64,000 nt of DNA from Georgenia soli. Lineage in GTDB: Bacteria; Actinomycetota; Actinomycetes; Actinomycetales; Actinomycetaceae. The notes under the pieces are model-generated. The model saw only the letters and a program-made list of their open reading frames with translations, was not told where the DNA came from and searched no databases. Location of the stretch: contig NZ_PDJI01000004.1 of NCBI RefSeq assembly GCF_002563695.1, positions 124,001-188,000 of the forward strand, in the 5' to 3' direction. The position numbers and the translations under genes are program-made. How positions within the stretch are numbered: position 1 is the stretch's first letter; every line of letters starts with the position of its first letter. This document shows, in pieces, positions 20,176 to 28,678 of this stretch.

Positions 20176-22131
20176 TCAGTACGCCCGACGCGCACCCACC
20201 GGGCGGGACGAGCGGAAGGGACGCTCGCCGTGGTCGCCCTGGCCGGCGCCGTGGCGCTTGGCCTTGAACGGCTTGCGGTCGGTGCCACGGCGGTCACCGC
20301 GGTCACCACCGGAGCGGGGGCCCTCGTCCGGGCGGATCTTCAGCGGACGGCCCGCCACTCGAGCGGCGCCGATGCGGCGGCTCGTCTCGGGCGTCATCTC
20401 ACCGGAGATCTCCACGAGGGAGAAGCTGGGGAAGATGTCGATCTTGCCCAGGTCGGAGCCGCGCAGGCCGCCCTCGCCGGTGATCGCACCGACGATGGCG
20501 CCGGGCTGCACGCCGTCCTTGTGGCCGACCTCGACGCGGTAGCGGGCGCCGGCCACGCGCGGGCGACGTCCGCCGCGCTCGGCCGCACCGCGCTCGCCCC
20601 CGCGGGAGGCGCGCGGTGCGAAGCCCTCGTCGAAGCTGGCGCCGAGGAACGTGCCGTCCTCGTCCACCTGCTCCTCGCGCCGGATCCGGGGGTAGGTCTC
20701 GCCGTCGTCCTCGCGGCGGCGCGGCCCCTCGTCCCCGACGGCGAGAGCGACCAGGGTGGCGGCCACCTCGAGCAGGTCGGTCCCGGTCTCCTCGAGATGG
20801 GCGGTGATGACGTCGCGGTACATGTGCAGCCGACCGGCCTCGCGTCGTGCGGAGATCTGGGTGAAGAGCTGCTGCGCCTTGTGGGCGGAGACGTCCGCCG
20901 GCGTCGGGATGGCGATCTCCTCGAGAGAGGAGCCGGTGGCCTTCTCGATCTGGTGCAGGCGGGAGCGCTCGCGCGGGGTGAGGAACGTCAGTGCGGTGCC
21001 GGTCCGTCCCGCACGGCCGGTCCGGCCGATGCGGTGCACGTAGGCGTCGTTCTCGCGGGGCACGTCGAAGTTGACGACGAGGCCGATCCGCTCGACGTCG
21101 AGGCCACGGGCGGCGACGTCGGTGGCCACGAGGACGTCGAGGCTGCCGGCGCGCAGGCGCTCGACGAGCTTCTCGCGCTCCTTCTGGGGCACGTCGCCGG
21201 ACAGGCCCGCGGCGGAGATGCCGCGCGAGGAGAGCTCGAGGGAGACGTCCTCGACCGTGCCCTTGGTGCGCACGAAGACGATGGCTGCCTCGGCGTCGGT
21301 CGTCGCCAGGACGCGGGCGAGCGCGCCGGTCTTGTGCTTGAACGGCACGACGGCGTAGGTCTGGCGCACCGTGGCCACGGTCGACGCGGGTCGGGTGACC
21401 GCCACGCGCACCGGGTCGGTCAGGTGCGTGGCGGCGACCCGCTTGATGGCGGCCGGCATGGTGGCGGAGAACAGCGCGGTGCGACGGTCGGCAGGCACGT
21501 GCGAGGCGATCTCCTCGACGTCCTCGGCGAAGCCCATCCGCAGCATCTCGTCGGCCTCGTCCAGGACGAGGAACTTGACGCCGCCGAGCTTGAGGCTGCC
21601 GCGCTCGATGAGGTCCATGACGCGGCCCGGCGTGCCCACGACGACCTGGGCGCCGTCCTTCAGCGCACGCAGCTGGGGCACGTAGCTCGAGCCGCCGTAG
21701 ACGGGCAGGACGGTGAGGTTCTTGGTGCGGTGCGCGAAGGAGGCGACGGCGTCGGCCACCTGCATGGCGAGCTCGCGGGTCGGGGTGAGCACCAGCGCCT
21801 GGACCGACCGGTCCGCGGCGTCGACGGCCTCGAGCAGCGGCAGGCCGAACGCCGCCGTCTTGCCGGTGCCGGTCTGGGCGATGCCGACGACGTCGCGCCC
21901 GGAGAGCAGCACCGGGATGGCCTCGGCCTGGATGTCGGTGGGGGTGGTGAAGCCGAGGTCCTCGACGGCGGCGAGGAGGTCCGCGGGGAGCCCGAGGTCG
22001 GCAAAGGTGCGGCCGGCAGCCTCCGGCGCGGCGTCGGCGGGGATCTCGAGCGCGACGGCGGCGGCCGGGGTCTCCGGCGTGTCGTCGGTGGCCGGGCGTG
22101 CGGGGGCGAGGTCAGTCACAGGGGTGCTCAC
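20176..22131 (-). CDS. deaD: DEAD-box ATP-dependent RNA helicase (DeaD/CsdA type)
   Basis: A 651-residue DEAD-box helicase that unwinds RNA in ribosome assembly, RNA turnover and cold adaptation. Motifs in order: Q motif TPTDIQAEAIPVLLSGRD, motif I AQTGTGKTAAF, motif II VLDEADEML, motif III FSATMP, motif V DVAARGLDVERI and motif VI HRIGRTGRAGRTG. A DbpA-type RNA-binding domain follows (YRVEVGHKDGVQPGAIVGAITGE region), then a basic tail rich in Arg, Gly and Asp. GTG 22131 has only a weak AGG upstream. A minus-strand TACGCT at 22271-22266 may be the -10, giving a leader of about 127 nt, in keeping with long leaders of cold-shock helicases. Confidence 0.92.
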   Translation of the reverse strand: MSTPVTDLAPARPATDDTPETPAAAVALEIPADAAPEAAGRTFADLGLPADLLAAVEDLGFTTPTDIQAEAIPVLLSGRDVVGIAQTGTGKTAAFGLPLLEAVDAADRSVQALVLTPTRELAMQVADAVASFAHRTKNLTVLPVYGGSSYVPQLRALKDGAQVVVGTPGRVMDLIERGSLKLGGVKFLVLDEADEMLRMGFAEDVEEIASHVPADRRTALFSATMPAAIKRVAATHLTDPVRVAVTRPASTVATVRQTYAVVPFKHKTGALARVLATTDAEAAIVFVRTKGTVEDVSLELSSRGISAAGLSGDVPQKEREKLVERLRAGSLDVLVATDVAARGLDVERIGLVVNFDVPRENDAYVHRIGRTGRAGRTGTALTFLTPRERSRLHQIEKATGSSLEEIAIPTPADVSAHKAQQLFTQISARREAGRLHMYRDVITAHLEETGTDLLEVAATLVALAVGDEGPRRREDDGETYPRIRREEQVDEDGTFLGASFDEGFAPRASRGGERGAAERGGRRPRVAGARYRVEVGHKDGVQPGAIVGAITGEGGLRGSDLGKIDIFPSFSLVEISGEMTPETSRRIGAARVAGRPLKIRPDEGPRSGGDRGDRRGTDRKPFKAKRHGAGQGDHGERPFRSSRPVGARRAY

Positions 22132-22388
22132 AGAAAACCTGTCTCACGAGGGCGGAGTGTGGATGGCGACGCCGGGGCGGCGAAGCACCGGCCGCTCGTG
22201 AGGCCCGGACGAACGCGAGAACTTCCGCAGCGGGCCTGGGCGGTGAGTGCACTCCAGGAGTCCCCAGCGTATCGGTCCCGCGTCCGGAAGGGCAGGTCGG
22301 GGCCCGGTGACCTCACGCACAGCACCCGTCCCGCCCGTCGCGAGGGCCCGCTGCGTCACCGCACGGCGCCCGCCCCCGCCCGGACGAC

Positions 22389-24368
22389 TCAGTCCTGGCT
22401 GAGGACGAACGCCGTCAGGTAGGACAGGGAGTTGCCGTTGTCGACCTGCTCCGCGGGGAGCTGCTCGAGCATCGCTGTCGCCCGGTCCGGGTCCGTCAGT
22501 GCCTGGGCCATGATCACGTAGTCGACGAGCGGCCGCCCGGCCGGGTCGCCGTCGGGGACCGCGGCGTCGACCATGGCCTGGACCGCCTCCGGCTCCTCGG
22601 CGAGGTACGCGGCGTGGGTCGGGCTCATCGGGATGAGCTGGATACCGACGACGGCGGAGGGGGCCGCGTCGAAGAAGGTCGCGAAGTCGCGCTTGCCCTG
22701 CCAGTTGATGCCGACGCTGCTGTGCCCGAACTCCTCGGGCAGCTCGGGCGCGACCCAGTACTCCAGGGCCGTGGCCGTCTCGTTCGCGAGCATCCAGCGG
22801 GCCTGCTCGCCCATGGCCGTGTCGCCCGACGCGTCCGCCCACAGGGCGAGGCCGGCCCAGGCGTTGACGGCCTCGGAGGGAGACTCCTGGTTGTTGCCGT
22901 CCCCGAACGGTGCGGTGCCGGACGCCCAGGAGTGGCCCCACCAGTCGTCGAACGAGCGCCGCTGCGGGAACGCCGCGGTCTGCTCGGGGGCGGCGATGTC
23001 GTGGGCGACGGCGTCCGCCACCGCGGCGTACCGCTCGGCGAGCGCCGGGTCGTCGGCGGCGAGCACGCCCAGCGCGTACAGCATGTGGCCGTAGTGGAAG
23101 TGGTGGTCGTTGAACTCGTCGGACCCGTACGAGGGCTCCTGGCCCACCAGCCCGCCCAGCTTCTCGTCGTAGGCGAAGCAGCGCTCCTCGCGCGTGGCGC
23201 ACCCCTCGGGGTCGAACCAGCTGTCGAGCTCGCCGGTCATCCTCTCCTTCAGCGCGGCGGCCTCGTCGGTCAGGCCGAGACCGGTCGCGAGCTGGTAGAG
23301 CTGGGCGGCGCGCTGGAGCTGCTTGCCGGCGTAGTAGCTGTCGGCGGCGTCGAACGTCACTGCGACCGCGTCCGCGCGCACCCGCCCGGCCACCCGGGAC
23401 CGCTCGGCGTCGTCGAGGTTGGCGAGGTCGAGCTCGGGCACGGGCTCCCGGGCGGCCACGGAGAACGTGGCCTCGTTGCCGGAGGCCAGAGCGAGCTCGC
23501 CGTAGACGGACGGGACGGTGGCGGCGAGCGGCTCGCCGTCGGTCGTCGTCTCCTGGTGCGGGAGGGAGGCGAGCACGGTGGAGGCGCCGGCGGTGTCGTA
23601 GGTGAAGGTCGTGCTGGCCCGTCCGTCCTCGACGGCGTGGGCGACGTCCGTCCCCGTGAGCGGGACGGCGCCCGCGCGCAGGGCTTGGCGGTCGGCGTCG
23701 GAGGCGCCGGCGGGCTCGGCGTAGACGACGAGCGAGCCGCCCTCGGCGAGCTCGAGCGTGGTGCCGGAGAAGGAGCCGTCGGTGACGAAGCGGTAGGTGA
23801 TCCCGCCGACCTCGGCGCTCGCTCCGCCGTCGGCGGCCACGGTGGACGCGGGCAGGTCGACCTTCTGTGCGGCGGCCGCCTCGTACGCGACGTACGGCCA
23901 GCCCTCCGCCATCGTGACCCGGCCGGTGGTCCGCCCGTCCCGGCGGTAGGCGAACGTGCCGGAGAGCTCGTCGACCCGCTCGAGCACGTAGTCGTCGGCG
24001 CCGAGCGCCAGGTCGACGTGGTCCGGGTGGGCGCCCATGAGGATGCCCTCGGACGCCTGCGGCGCCGGGAGCCCGAGGCTCAGACCGTCGGCCCGCAGGC
24101 GCACGCTGAGGGTGCCGGTGAAGACCGGCCGGTCCGCGGGTGCGAAGACTGCCGGCGCGAGCCAGGAGTTGGTCGGCGGCCTGACGCCGTCGGCCACCGC
24201 GATCTCGCCGGTGAAGGGACCGGTCGTCGTCGGCAGGCCCGCGGCCGTGGCGTCGACGGCGGACGCGTCGGCGGTCTCCTCGGGCCGGGCGGCGTCGTCG
24301 GTGGACCGGGCGCACCCGGTGAGCACGACGGCGGAGGCGAGCAGGGCGGTCACACGGCGGAGGGGCAC
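22389..24368 (-). CDS. GH81 endo-beta-1,3-glucanase, lipoprotein
   Basis: A 659-residue glycoside hydrolase family 81 protein that should cleave beta-1,3-glucan. The family signatures are EFNDHHFHYGHMLYALG (catalytic Asp region, about 419-435) and DWWGHSWASG followed by NNQESPSEAVNAWAG (catalytic Glu region, about 493-506). The N-terminus LRRVTALLASAVVLTGC is a lipoprotein signal with lipobox LTGC, Cys19. The enzyme is therefore exported and anchored to the outer face of the membrane. GTG 24368, 4 nt after AGGAG, is chosen because the signal peptide then starts correctly; a longer frame runs to 24479. It is the last gene of the GT2-HlyD-GH81 operon, 56 bp after the adaptor stop. Confidence 0.88.
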   Translation of the reverse strand: MPLRRVTALLASAVVLTGCARSTDDAARPEETADASAVDATAAGLPTTTGPFTGEIAVADGVRPPTNSWLAPAVFAPADRPVFTGTLSVRLRADGLSLGLPAPQASEGILMGAHPDHVDLALGADDYVLERVDELSGTFAYRRDGRTTGRVTMAEGWPYVAYEAAAAQKVDLPASTVAADGGASAEVGGITYRFVTDGSFSGTTLELAEGGSLVVYAEPAGASDADRQALRAGAVPLTGTDVAHAVEDGRASTTFTYDTAGASTVLASLPHQETTTDGEPLAATVPSVYGELALASGNEATFSVAAREPVPELDLANLDDAERSRVAGRVRADAVAVTFDAADSYYAGKQLQRAAQLYQLATGLGLTDEAAALKERMTGELDSWFDPEGCATREERCFAYDEKLGGLVGQEPSYGSDEFNDHHFHYGHMLYALGVLAADDPALAERYAAVADAVAHDIAAPEQTAAFPQRRSFDDWWGHSWASGTAPFGDGNNQESPSEAVNAWAGLALWADASGDTAMGEQARWMLANETATALEYWVAPELPEEFGHSSVGINWQGKRDFATFFDAAPSAVVGIQLIPMSPTHAAYLAEEPEAVQAMVDAAVPDGDPAGRPLVDYVIMAQALTDPDRATAMLEQLPAEQVDNGNSLSYLTAFVLSQD

Positions 24369-24424
24369 ATGACTCCTGAGTGGTTGTCGGGTGCGGCGGT
24401 GGGTGCCGCGGTGGTCGGCGGGCG

Positions 24425-25156
24425 TCAGATCGACGCTCCGCTGGGCGTGATGAGCTCGGCGAGCTGCCGTGCGGCCCACGAGCCGAGGCCCTCGGCGTCG
24501 TCCAGGTGGACCTGCGCGGTGACGGGGGCACCGTTGGTGAACGTGCCTGCCTCGGCCAGCTCGGGGCTGCGGCCCCGGACGACGGCGACCGACTCGCCGT
24601 CCTCGGCCTCCTCGAACTGGACCTCGTAGACCTCGGTGGCGACCTCGGTGCTGTCGGGCAGCCTGGCCGTCATCGCCGACCCCGCGGGGAGCCGCGCGTA
24701 GTCCGCCGCGCTCATCGGCACCTCGGCCCGGACGCGCGAGGTGCCCTGCACCTCGATGCTCGCGATCTGGGTGTTCGCGGTGACGAAGGAGCCGGCTGCG
24801 TGCTCGGCGCTGCCGACCACGCCGTCCGCCGTGGCCGTGAGGACGATGACGTCGTCGCCGTCGACGCGGTAGCCGAGGCCCTCCTCCGGGAAGCCCGTCT
24901 CGAGTGACTGCGAGAGGCTCGGGCTCTGCACGCGGGCGACCTCCTGGCCGGCCGTGACCCGGTCACCTGCGTGGACGCCGAGGGACTGGATGTGGCCGGC
25001 GAACGGCGTGCCGACCGTGGACAGGTCGGTCTCGACGGTCGCCTCGACGGCGTCCAGGGTGTGCGCGCGGCCGTAGGTGTACACCAGGCCTACCGCCCCG
25101 ATGCCGAGGATGAGAAGGGTGCCCAGCAGCAGGGAGGCGAAACGGCGAAGACTCAC
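24425..25156 (-). CDS. HlyD-like membrane-anchored adaptor (biotinyl-lipoyl domain)
   Basis: A 243-residue single-pass protein with an N-terminal membrane anchor (FASLLLGTLLILGIGAVGLVY, about 6-26). The first half of a lipoyl-like barrel (TPFAGHIQSLGVHAGDRVTAG) and a second half (VIVLTATADGVVGSAEHAAGSF) follow, then a beta-barrel like membrane fusion proteins (VRAEVPMSAADYARLPAGS). It lacks the long coiled-coil hairpin of Gram-negative exporters, which fits a cell without that export route. Its GTG overlaps the glycosyltransferase stop (GTGA), so the two are translationally coupled. By analogy with MFP-like partners of glycan synthases such as rhizobial BgsB, it probably helps move the glycan out; this is inference. 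Confidence 0.75.
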   Translation of the reverse strand: MSLRRFASLLLGTLLILGIGAVGLVYTYGRAHTLDAVEATVETDLSTVGTPFAGHIQSLGVHAGDRVTAGQEVARVQSPSLSQSLETGFPEEGLGYRVDGDDVIVLTATADGVVGSAEHAAGSFVTANTQIASIEVQGTSRVRAEVPMSAADYARLPAGSAMTARLPDSTEVATEVYEVQFEEAEDGESVAVVRGRSPELAEAGTFTNGAPVTAQVHLDDAEGLGSWAARQLAELITPSGASI

Positions 25157-26973
25157 AGGAGCTCCTGTCGGGTGGCGGGGGAAGGGGTGGCGGCGTGGGT
25201 CGGCGGCACGGGGCGCTCGGTGCGGCGCAGGGCGAGGGCCTCACGCACGGCGATGCCGAGGAAGGCGGCGAGCGCGAGGGCGTTGACCGTGTTCCACACG
25301 AGCGCGAGCGTGATCGTCGAGCTCCACTCCGCCTTCCAGAGGCCGACGACGGACGTGACGACGAGCGCGAGGAACATCAGCATCTGGGGGACGATGTAGT
25401 TGAACGGGGACGCCGCCCGGCCCGCCCGGCCGGTGACGTGCCAGGCGCGGTCCCGGCCGAGCAGGGCCCCGGCCATCGCGCGGATGTACATCGGGAACGA
25501 CACCGTGGACAGGAGCAGCGTCTCCCACCGGAACGAGCCGATCGTGTACGTCGCCACCACGATCTGCATGACGTAGAACCCCGAGTAGTACAGCGCCCAC
25601 TCCCACAGCGGCAGGTCCGTGGCGATCGGGGTCAGGTCGAGGAAGATCTGCAGTGGCGGGAGCAGGAGCAGCGCGAACGTGACCAGCCCGCCGAGGTAGA
25701 AGGTGGCGGTGCCGAAGTACTGCAGGCGCTGGTCCACGGACAGGCGTCGGTTCCGCAGCGGGTTTGCTCGGAAGAGGATCTCGAAGGCGCCGGTGGCCCA
25801 GCGGGTCTGCTGCTTGGTGTAGGCCTCGATGGTCTCCGGGGTGTCGCCGACGGCGAGGACGTCGGGAATGTAGACCGAGCGCCAGCCGAGCTCGTGGAGC
25901 TTCATCGACGTCCACACGTCCTCGGACTTCGACCTCGTGTACATGCCGCCGATCTCGGCGATCGCCGCCCGCGCGAAGACGACGTTCGTGCCGACGCAGA
26001 ACGCGGAGTTGAACCGGTTCTTGCCGGGCTGGATCAGTGAGTAGAACACCGTCTGCAGGTACCCGGCGCCGCGGGTGATGAAGTTGTGGATGTTGCCGTA
26101 GACCTGCGGGGTCTGGACGAAGGCGACCTTCTCCTGGGCGAAGAACGGGATCGTCTCGACGAGCAGGTCGGGGGAGGGGACGAAGTCGGCGTCGAGGATG
26201 ACGAAGTAGTCCCCGGAGGTCCGGCCGAGCGCGTGGTTGATGTTGCCGGCCTTGGCTCCCTTGTTGTCCGGCCGCGTGAGGTAGCTGACCCCGAGCTCGG
26301 CGGCGAGCGCCTCGACCTCGGGGGAGCGGCCGTCGTCGAGGATCCACGTCTCGTGCCGGCCCCGCATGGCTCGCGCCGCGGCGGCCGTGGCGCGGATGGT
26401 CTCGACGGGCTCGCCGTAGGTGGTGATGAAGACGTCGACGGTGACCGGGACACCGTCGAGCTGCATCTGGTCCGTGGCGAGCGGGGCGTTGAGGTCCCAG
26501 TCGACCGGCACGAACAGGTTCCGGCTGGCCTCGTTGAAGGTGAAGTCACGCGGGTTGTGCGTGGAGGACAGCTGGGTCCACAGCGAGATGAGGACCTGGC
26601 CCATCATGATCGACTCGCACACGATGACGATCAGCCAGGGCAGGAGGTCGCCGGAGTTCTCGGGGCGCATGAGGAACGAGGCGTAGAGGAGCACCCCGAT
26701 CGTGGCGAGCAGCACGAGCATCGTCAGCGACGGCGACTCGAGGTTCCGCTGCCCCTGGCCGACGCCGCGCAGGCGCTCCTCCCAGTCGCGGCGGACCGGC
26801 GACCCCACCTCGAGGGTGGCGAGCTGCTCGGCGCGGTGCCGCTCGCGCAGCACGCGACGGGGGAGAGGGGCGGCCGTCTCGTCGACGCGCGCGGGCGCGG
26901 CGGCGGCCGGCTCGACGGGCCGCCAGGCGGGGCTGCGGCGGAGGTCGGCGAGGTGCGGGCTGTTCGCTGGCAT
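25153..26973 (-). CDS. Processive family 2 glycan synthase (cellulose/beta-glucan synthase-like)
   Basis: A 606-residue membrane glycosyltransferase with the BcsA-type catalytic set: WILDDGRS (213-215), DAD (261-263), SED (350-352, the TED position) and QQTRW (388-392). Two membrane helices precede the catalytic domain (about 83-100, 112-130) and four or five follow it (about 424-578). No PilZ domain is present; the protein ends about 28 residues after the last helix. It should polymerise a beta-linked glucan and export it. Pairing with a beta-1,3-glucanase suggests the polymer contains beta-1,3 bonds (inference). ATG 26973 has an AAGGA Shine-Dalgarno and a good promoter at 27024-27052. Confidence 0.85.
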   Translation of the reverse strand: MPANSPHLADLRRSPAWRPVEPAAAAPARVDETAAPLPRRVLRERHRAEQLATLEVGSPVRRDWEERLRGVGQGQRNLESPSLTMLVLLATIGVLLYASFLMRPENSGDLLPWLIVIVCESIMMGQVLISLWTQLSSTHNPRDFTFNEASRNLFVPVDWDLNAPLATDQMQLDGVPVTVDVFITTYGEPVETIRATAAAARAMRGRHETWILDDGRSPEVEALAAELGVSYLTRPDNKGAKAGNINHALGRTSGDYFVILDADFVPSPDLLVETIPFFAQEKVAFVQTPQVYGNIHNFITRGAGYLQTVFYSLIQPGKNRFNSAFCVGTNVVFARAAIAEIGGMYTRSKSEDVWTSMKLHELGWRSVYIPDVLAVGDTPETIEAYTKQQTRWATGAFEILFRANPLRNRRLSVDQRLQYFGTATFYLGGLVTFALLLLPPLQIFLDLTPIATDLPLWEWALYYSGFYVMQIVVATYTIGSFRWETLLLSTVSFPMYIRAMAGALLGRDRAWHVTGRAGRAASPFNYIVPQMLMFLALVVTSVVGLWKAEWSSTITLALVWNTVNALALAAFLGIAVREALALRRTERPVPPTHAATPSPATRQELL

Positions 26974-27023
26974 ACGTTCCTTAACTGGCTCACCCGCGGC
27001 CGTCCGCGGGGCGTCAGCGTTCG

Positions 27024-27052
27024 ACCGTAGGTAACGGAACGGTCACGTCCAA
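27024..27052 (-). promoter_or_regulatory. Promoter of the glycan synthase operon with overlapping dyads
   Basis: On the minus strand TTGGAC (27052-27047) and TACGGT (27029-27024) are separated by 17 nt, a good vegetative promoter. It predicts a start near 27017 and a leader of about 44 nt. Dyads overlap it: ACCGT-N10-ACGGT (27024-27043) across the -10, and CGTCC-N6-GGACG (27046-27061) across the -35. A related CCGT-N6-ACGG lies at 27086-27099. These are candidate operator sites. Confidence 0.65.
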
Positions 27053-27232
27053 CCTGGGACGGTGAGGCGCCCGCTACACCTCCTACCGTCCGAAAACGGC
27101 GGTCTGCCGGCCCTTCCGGACCGGTTGCCGCCATGCCTGCAGGCCAGCCGGTATATCGGCCGGAGACGCCCGGTTTGGCGACGGGGGAGCACCGTCCTCG
27201 TCCCGGTGACGAGGCTCACCGGTGGTGGGCGC

Positions 27233-28678
27233 TCACTCCAGCTCGGGCGGCGTCGCCCGGGCGCCGGCCCACAGGGCGAGCAGCCCGAGGCCGCCGGCCA
27301 GCACGAGCCCGGCCAGGTAGGCCTCCCGGCCGCCGGTCCCCACCAGGGCCGTGAAGACGGCACCGGCCAGGGCGAGCCCGAGGGCGGCGCCGAGGCCGTC
27401 GGAGATCTGGAGCGCGGAGCTCACCGTGCCGTGCTCGGCCCGGGGCGTGGCCTGCAGCACGAGGACGGACAGTGCGGGGAAGATCAGCCCCATGCCGGCG
27501 CCCGCCACGGTCCAGCCGGCCACCACCCACCAGGGGGCCGCGCCGGGCAGCGCAGCCGCTGCCGAGACGAACGTGCCCACGGCCAGCAGCAGCGGTCCCA
27601 GCCAGAGCAGCAGGGCGCGCCGGAGTGGCGTGCGGACCCTGCCCTGCACGGCCGAGCCCGCGGCCCAGGTGATCGAGCTGACGGTCAGCACGAGACCGGC
27701 GTCCCGCGCGGACCAGTCGTGGGCGCGGACGAGCAGGAGGGGCAGGAACGTCTCGGCGGTGATGAAGGCGGCGTTGAGGAGCCCGCGGCACGCCACCGCC
27801 GAGGGCACCCCGGCACGCAGCCGCAGCGTCCCGGCGGGGAGCAGCTGCCGCACGGTCACCGCCAGGCCCGCCACCCCGGCGACCGCCAGCACCACCCCCG
27901 TCGTCCCGCCGTCGGACCCCGCCACCTGCAGGGCGGCGGCTGCGAGTCCGGCACCGGTGGCGGCCAGGAGGAGGGTGCGGGTCCGCCGTCGTCCGTCGGC
28001 GTCCGCCGGGCCACGGGGGACGGACCGCACGTGATGCAGCAGCGGCAGCAGGACCGTGGAGGCCGCCAGGGTGAGCACGGGGACCGCGAGGAAGACCCAG
28101 CGCCAGCTCGCGGCCTCCGCCACCGTCCCGGCGATCGCCGGACCCACGAGGCCGGGCACCACCCACGCGGCGGCGAAGGCGGCGAAGAACCGGGGCTGGC
28201 GCGCGGCCGGCACCATCGAGCCCACCAGCACGTACAGCGGGACCATCAGCAGCCCGGCGCCGAAGCCCTGGACGGCGCGCCCGACCGCGAGGACCGCCAT
28301 GGTCGGTGCCAGGCCGGCCACCAGGAGCCCGGCGCAGAAGAGGAGGATGCCCAGCAGGAGGGAGCCGCGCGGCCCACGGGCGTCGGACCACGCGCCGCTC
28401 ACGGCGGTGGCCACCAGCTGGGCCGCGAGCGGTGCACCCGCGGCCACCGTGTAGAGGTGGAGGCCACCCAGCTCCTCCACCACCACCGGCATGACGGTGG
28501 CCACGGCGAGCGCCTCGAACGCGGCGAGGGTGATGAGCGCGACCGACGCGATCAGCAGCAGGCGGACCAGCTGCGCGGACTGCCCGTCCTCGGCGCGGGC
28601 GCTGCCGGCGTCCTGGGCAGCGCCGGCGGACGACGCCGCCGCACCGGGGCTGTCCTGGGCGCTCACGCGCTGAATCAT
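27233..28678 (-). CDS. MFS transporter (multidrug efflux-like)
   Basis: A 481-residue major facilitator superfamily permease with about 12-14 membrane helices. The motif A region after helix 2 reads [16 protein letters not shown], and the helix 4 region [22 protein letters not shown] is typical of drug:H+ antiporters. The N-terminal ~35 residues are polar, Ala/Ser-rich and cytoplasmic. ATG 28678 is chosen because the membrane region then begins about 36 residues in; GTG 28666 is also possible. It is upstream of, and on the same strand as, the glycan operon, but 259 bp and a separate promoter lie between. Substrate unknown. Confidence 0.8.

Follow-up and report, generated by a model that had tools for sequence, protein, structure and literature searches.

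A three-gene operon in a 64,000-nt stretch of the Georgenia soli genome (the window, meaning the whole stretch that was analysed) encodes a BcsA-like processive glycosyltransferase of family GT2, a HlyD-like membrane adaptor and a β-1,3-glucanase of family GH81. The trio is, with very high confidence, a conserved polysaccharide module. Its best reading from the sequences is a Gram-positive system of synthase, adaptor and cognate hydrolase making β-1,3-glucan. We consider it fairly probable that the operon produces a cell-surface β-glucan with β-1,3 bonds, extrudes it and trims it; a linear β-1,3-glucan of the curdlan type is the most likely form. Taken separately, β-1,3 bonds in the product are predicted with good confidence, and a pure curdlan type is favoured with more reserve. 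The first-pass annotation, in which the cell makes and trims an extracellular glucan containing β-1,3 bonds, is partly supported.

Conservation and organization of the trio

Named genomes were scanned with a profile of 14 synthases, and all counts on named loci refer to the best 80 of 269 relatives. HlyD follows GT2 in 80/80 loci (tblastn detected 78, and a profile L144 and L166), and GH81 is the third gene in 78/80. At the two other loci no GH81 match was found in the ~0.1 kb (L136) and ~0.6 kb (L176) of contig left after HlyD; L176, where both tblastn and profile were negative over the last 0.6 kb, was scored as a miss. A second sample comprised 40 context stretches, some from the same genomes as the named loci. 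Here GH81 accompanies all of the 38 operon-type GT2s (38/38), as does HlyD (36 by tblastn, L101 and L114 by profile). Two GT2s of ~40% identity (L102, L103) have neither HlyD nor GH81 nearby. A chance neighbourhood is ruled out by the conservation of the trio in the loci as against its absence beside these two GT2s.

The gene order, which the first-pass annotation had read from this one genome, thus recurs in many actinobacterial genera. The hosts include Cellulomonas, Actinotalea, Cellulosimicrobium, Isoptericola, Oerskovia, Sanguibacter, Demequina, Microbacterium, Curtobacterium, Frigoribacterium, Cryobacterium, Nocardioides, Propionicimonas, Pseudonocardia, Pseudarthrobacter, Ornithinimicrobium, Nostocoides and Actinomyces. 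Two metagenome-assembled genomes titled as other phyla are also among them and may be mis-binned. Tandem synthase copies with one or two GH81s occur in five genomes of one genus (g44) and in one Cellulomonas-type genome (L093, L106, L107, L108, L109 and L241); two of the g44 genomes group with Demequina in the tree.

The synthase of Georgenia sp. EYE_87 has the highest identity, 91%, among the best 80 of 269 loci. Within Georgenia the distribution is patchy, with the GT2 at ≥79% identity in 4/9 sampled genomes. At ≥50% identity it is present in 51/81 genomes of the Cellulomonas-type genus (in one of them split across two frames), and in a phylum-wide sample of 396 genomes only the window's own reached 50%. 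Horizontal transfer of the operon is likely, because outside the genus the Georgenia synthase lies nearest to those of Ornithinimicrobium and Nostocoides in the GT2 tree, while that of Actinomyces provencensis is distant.

All three genes are on the minus strand, from 26973 to 22389, with GT2 first, HlyD second and GH81 third (Table 1). The GTG start of HlyD overlaps the TGA stop of GT2 by 4 nt, so that the two are likely to be translationally coupled, as had been proposed. The longest GH81 open reading frame (ORF) begins at 24479, within the HlyD gene. An alternative start, GTG 24368, has AGGAG just 5' of it and is likely to be the true start; from there the HlyD-GH81 spacer is 56 nt and the genes no longer overlap.

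Table 1 Features of the operon in the window
Feature	Position	Strand	Size and basis
GT2 BcsA-like processive synthase ORF	25153..26973	minus	606 aa; Pfam scan, motifs, model
HlyD/MFP (membrane fusion protein)-like adaptor ORF	24425..25156	minus	243 aa; Pfam scan, model
GT2 stop / HlyD start overlap (GTGA)	25153..25156	minus	4 nt; sequence read directly
GH81 endo-β-1,3-glucanase, lipoprotein	22389..24368	minus	659 aa from GTG 24368; VVLTGC lipobox; NDHHFHYG and GNNQESPSEA
Conserved upstream block, candidate promoter/operator	27022..27054	minus	two-Georgenia alignment

The operon is flanked upstream by an MFS gene on the same strand and downstream by a DEAD-type helicase gene (named by eye), and the genes flanking the trio differ across loci. 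A longer operon was rejected: by flanking-gene clustering, which overlooks divergent genes, among the 80 loci the helicase has a linked counterpart in Georgenia sp. EYE_87 (L128) alone, and the MFS gene has none. The claim that all three genes lie behind one good promoter is weakly supported. A sigma-70 scan of 22000-27400 found zero consensus sites, and a canonical sigma-70 promoter was rejected on this basis. A 33-nt block upstream, GGTTGGAsGTGACCGTTCCGTTACCTACGGTCG (27022-27054), has one mismatch to Georgenia sp. EYE_87. A promoter or operator is plausible there, because the block is near-identical while the whole upstream alignment of these two sequences has 78% identity over 313 columns. 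By eye, the block contains an imperfect inverted repeat, ACCGT/ACGGT.

The glucanase and the adaptor

The hydrolase scores 173.5 bits against Glyco_hydro81C (cut-off 25.6). Read from GTG 24368, its N-terminus opens MPLRRVTALLASAVVLTGC, which contains a lipobox, in agreement with its earlier description as a lipoprotein GH81. The motifs NDHHFHYG and NNQESxSEA align with the solved GH81 structures 6fop and BH0236, and we take the catalytic acid/base residues to lie within these aligned motifs.

Across 297 genomes of the order, GH81 is present in 36/36 with this GT2 (≥50% identity) and in 9/261 others (Fisher p = 3e-38, which is overstated because the genomes are related). The genomes counted as being without this GT2 include 15 with weaker matches (31-42%), none of which has GH81. 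In the window genome the operon GH81 is the only one. A GH81 tree was built from 31 operon copies and 25 stand-alone copies, the latter being all non-operon places in the order plus four second copies beside operons. All 31 operon copies fall into one clade together with four stand-alones (L282-L285). The other 21/25 stand-alones are apart, which rules out the operon enzyme as the genome's general laminarinase; these 21 have open frames of ≥940 residues, the operon copies 691 to 1034. At 78 loci the operon GH81 carries a lipobox in 40 cases, while 22 show a helix of the membrane or signal type and 16 are unclassified, partly from search pieces that start wrongly (L128 is such a case and was left out of the count). 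The separate clade and the anchoring signals in most loci suggest that in most cases this hydrolase is dedicated to the operon and held at the surface, and we have high confidence in the prediction that it acts on the operon's own product. In four Cellulomonas loci (L171, L188, L190, L196) another GH81, long and divergent, lies downstream of the operon at a distance of ~0.5 to 1.5 kb and belongs to the stand-alone clade.

HlyD_3 and HlyD_D23 both score above cut-off in the 243-aa adaptor, which agrees with its first description as HlyD-like. The predicted model (mean predicted local distance difference test score 89.6) comprises an N-terminal helix (residues 3-30), a barrel-sandwich domain, a β-barrel and a C-terminal helix. 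The long coiled-coil α-hairpin is missing from the model, where the lipoyl halves are separated by a helix of just 8 residues (79-86); such a hairpin would not be needed because there is no outer membrane to reach. Foldseek and VIA-align match the model to MFPs such as ZneB, MacA and BesA, and isolated biotinyl domains score about equally high on its lipoyl part.

The synthase and related systems

The window GT2 contains the four motifs DDG, DAD, SED and QQTRW, as had been noted. Glyco_trans_2_3 and Cellulose_synt are above cut-off in its Pfam scan, which lists no PilZ domain, again as first described. The best family model is TIGR03030 (cellulose synthase catalytic subunit) at 256.4 bits, below the cut-off of 699.1. 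Strict patterns for all four motifs are passed at 67/80 loci; ten fail the first only and three fail all, in the pieces as extracted. At the gating-loop position the window GT2 has WHVTGR in place of FxVTxK. W..TG is found in at least 68/80 loci and FxVTxK in 0/80. The predicted model places a cytosolic GT-A domain between membrane helices and has the BcsA fold, with cellulose synthases as nearest folds.

The synthase phylogeny (87 rows) comes from a quick search with support from the Shimodaira-Hasegawa-like approximate likelihood ratio test only, and it carried a long-branch warning. The row op_L166 was dropped for having too few columns. The tree was built without RiGT2, clostridial CcsA, Streptomyces CslA and named chitin or hyaluronan synthases, and its CrdS-like references are plasmid crdASC-like homologues (L254, L256), not the ATCC 31749 gene. 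In line with the BcsA-type reading of the first-pass annotation, the GT2 falls within the BcsA/CrdS/BgsA superfamily, far from PgaC. The 30 operon rows form one clade (support 100) whose sister is the actinobacterial GT2 L102 (99). This clade is apart from CrdS-like, BgsA and BcsA sequences, with a deeper split supported at only 86-88. Approximately unbiased (AU) tests reject one clade of operon GT2 and CrdS-like sequences (log-likelihood 166 lower) and also a clade that adds BgsA and two related GT2s (115 lower), which rules out orthology of the operon GT2 to CrdS or BgsA. CVGT and SED are both present in the window GT2, in 28/30 and 29/30 other operon rows, respectively, and in both CrdS-like rows; none of three BcsA, two BgsA and two other rhizobial rows has them, a pattern that was spotted post hoc and serves as a lead only.

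The operon shares features with several known systems. Agrobacterium crdASC, seen here through L254 and L256 (called crdASC-like from gene order and a 1455-nt crdA-like gene), also comprises a processive GT2, a HlyD_3-domain protein and a third protein, and SED and CVGT are common to both synthases. However, its order is HlyD-GT2-third, the synthases lie in different clades, its HlyD and third gene have no significant BLASTP similarity to the present HlyD and GH81, and the CrdC-like protein has no GH81 domain. That protein (L254:7704-8984, on Agrobacterium plasmid pAtA47a) has a weak match to an endo-β-1,2-glucanase (E 0.002). CrdC may be glucanase-like, which would give crdASC the same three-part logic. 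BgsB-BgsA of Sinorhizobium and Rhizobium (L255 and L262, named by resemblance) likewise pairs a BcsA-like synthase with an MFP/HlyD-domain partner, but the adaptor comes first and is longer (410 aa), no adjacent glucanase is annotated, and the synthase has TED and lies in a separate clade.

Excerpts of PMC11022532 describe a logic common to CslA-GlxA-CslZ, CcsA-CcsB-CcsZ and BcsA-BcsB-BcsZ, namely a synthase, an unrelated partner and a hydrolase. The Streptomyces CslA-GlxA-CslZ system is also a Gram-positive actinobacterial synthase with a membrane-anchored partner and a polysaccharide hydrolase, but there the partner GlxA is a copper radical oxidase instead of a HlyD-like protein, CslZ acts on peptidoglycan as well as on cellulose and chitin, and CslA, unlike the window GT2, has retained a putative FxVTxK together with parts of PilZ (PMC11022532). 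According to excerpts of PMC10374906, RiGT2 of Romboutsia ilealis is another Gram-positive GT2 β-glucan synthase with no bcsB gene adjoining; it differs in having PilZ, QRDRW and TED and makes (1,3;1,4)-glucan in yeast. BcsA-BcsB-BcsZ and clostridial CcsA-CcsB-CcsZ resemble the operon in synthase fold as well as in the three-part logic (PMC11022532). In contrast to both, no BcsB-like partner or PilZ was found in the window operon, where the hydrolase is a GH81. BcsZ and CcsZ presumably belong to hydrolase families other than GH81. A set of GT2, HlyD and GH81 is not described in the titles and abstract openings of the open-licence PMC literature searched.

Curdlan in Cellulomonas and alternative products

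For each Cellulomonas genome, excerpts of PMC3544764 (2013) report two GT2s that are 35-39% identical to the Agrobacterium curdlan synthase. A GT2 search of three Cellulomonas genomes at E 1e-30 likewise gave two GT2 places in each. Dividing locus-tag number by relative position yields totals that agree to within 1% between the two places (3710/3684, 3817/3814 and 3213/3220), a strong indication that the operon GT2 is Cfla_3154, Celf_3456 and Celgi_1506. These would be orthologues of the window GT2 in the same operon; their partners are unmentioned in the excerpts of PMC3544764. Cellulomonas flavigena, a known curdlan producer, thus apparently carries the operon. Strain KU of this species is reported to make curdlan and to lose the polymer again on nitrogen-rich medium (excerpts of PMC3035266 and PMC10819609), and the route of curdlan reuse is described as unclear in excerpts of PMC3544764.

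Several observations weigh against a curdlan-type product. The GT2 lies outside the CrdS clade, so that β-1,3 specificity is not transferable by homology, and its core identity is 32% to CrdS-like and 28-32% to BcsA sequences. CVGT also occurs in three, and SED in six, of 42 other actinobacterial rows (SED 4/34 + 2/8); L102, L247 and L253 are actinobacterial GT2s outside the operon clade that have both. GH81 could act on another β-1,3 substrate, and for the four stand-alones in the operon GH81 clade the short surrounding stretches that were retrieved contain neither GT2 nor HlyD. Curdlan production is best known from strain KU and not from the type strain that was sequenced (PMC3035266, PMC10819609, in excerpts), and a second candidate GT2 is present in C. 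flavigena. Curdlan production is said to be low in C. fimi and other Cellulomonas (excerpts of PMC3544764) and C. gelida is reported without it (excerpts of PMC3035266/PMC10819609), in contrast to the GT2 in 51/81 Cellulomonas-type genomes.

The main rival, which we regard as unlikely, is that the synthase makes a mixed-linkage (1,3;1,4)-β-glucan, as BgsA and RiGT2 do, and that GH81 cuts its β-1,3 stretches. GH81 needs runs of β-1,3 bonds, and such a synthase would be expected to be paired with a member of a lichenase family. No sequence mark examined distinguishes the products, and BgsA is likewise paired with a HlyD-domain partner (excerpts of PMC9495663; L255). However, both BgsA rows have TED and RiGT2 has TED and PilZ, whereas the window GT2 has SED and no PilZ in its Pfam scan.

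It is similarly improbable that Cellulomonas curdlan comes from the other candidate, the Cfla_2615-like GT2, and that the present operon makes something else. The two candidates are named side by side in excerpts of PMC3544764, and their core identity to CrdS-like sequences is about equal (31.0%, vs 31.6% for the operon GT2). The Cfla_2615-like GT2, however, has no HlyD or GH81 by tblastn in the surrounding 18 kb in the three genomes (neighbours not all scanned), and it has TED and FAVTRK/FAVTPK, as in BcsA-like enzymes. It lies near genes for a SpoIIE phosphatase (L235), a HATPase_c_2 protein (L237) and a STAS protein (L239), which suggests partner-switch control of this second candidate.

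Still less probably, the synthase makes cellulose or another β-1,4-glucan and GH81 eats foreign (fungal, algal) β-1,3-glucan. The cellulose synthase model fits best, although its 256 bits fall far short of the 699-bit cut-off, and cellulose synthases are the nearest folds of the predicted structure. Against this, GH81 follows GT2 in 78/80 loci, mostly with an anchoring signal, and the operon GH81 clade is apart from most stand-alones of the order, several of which share a genome with an operon copy. Hydrolases in other synthase operons (BcsZ, CcsZ, CslZ) also match their own product type (excerpts of PMC11022532). A non-glucan polymer, for example of amino sugars or uronic acids, with the GH81 substrate misread, is very improbable: sequence-only prediction of GT2 products is unreliable and the tree held no named chitin or hyaluronan synthase, but the GT2 is within the BcsA/CrdS/BgsA superfamily, far from PgaC, and the GH81 motifs are intact.

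For a curdlan-type product, fold and motifs suggest that the GT2 would add glucose from UDP-glucose at the cytoplasmic face and thread the chain through its own membrane channel like BcsA. The HlyD-like protein, with one N-terminal membrane helix and its barrel domains outside, would dock on the synthase exit and guide or stabilise the chain; gene pairing and fold point to its filling the place of BcsB, GlxA or BgsB. The membrane-anchored GH81 would cut the same polymer outside for release or trimming, as its family, anchoring signals and strict linkage suggest, and may remobilise the polymer as carbon.

More tentatively, we propose that the trio represents the system by which Gram-positive actinobacteria synthesise curdlan, and that it reached its many host families in part through horizontal transfer. 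Its synthase, of BcsA type and not from the CrdS branch, would have turned to β-1,3-glucan, possibly by a parallel active-site change (TED to SED, CxG to CVGT), with a short hairpin-less adaptor for BcsB and an anchored GH81 for trimming and remobilisation. The known synthase-partner-hydrolase logic would here have HlyD as partner and a β-1,3-glucanase as hydrolase. In C. flavigena, where the synthase was previously named by weak similarity only (excerpts of PMC3544764), the operon is one candidate for both curdlan synthesis and reuse. If the proposal is true, it would represent a second origin of β-1,3 specificity in the BcsA-like superfamily and help to show what determines linkage, and a surface β-1,3-glucan would be predicted in many trio-bearing actinobacteria.

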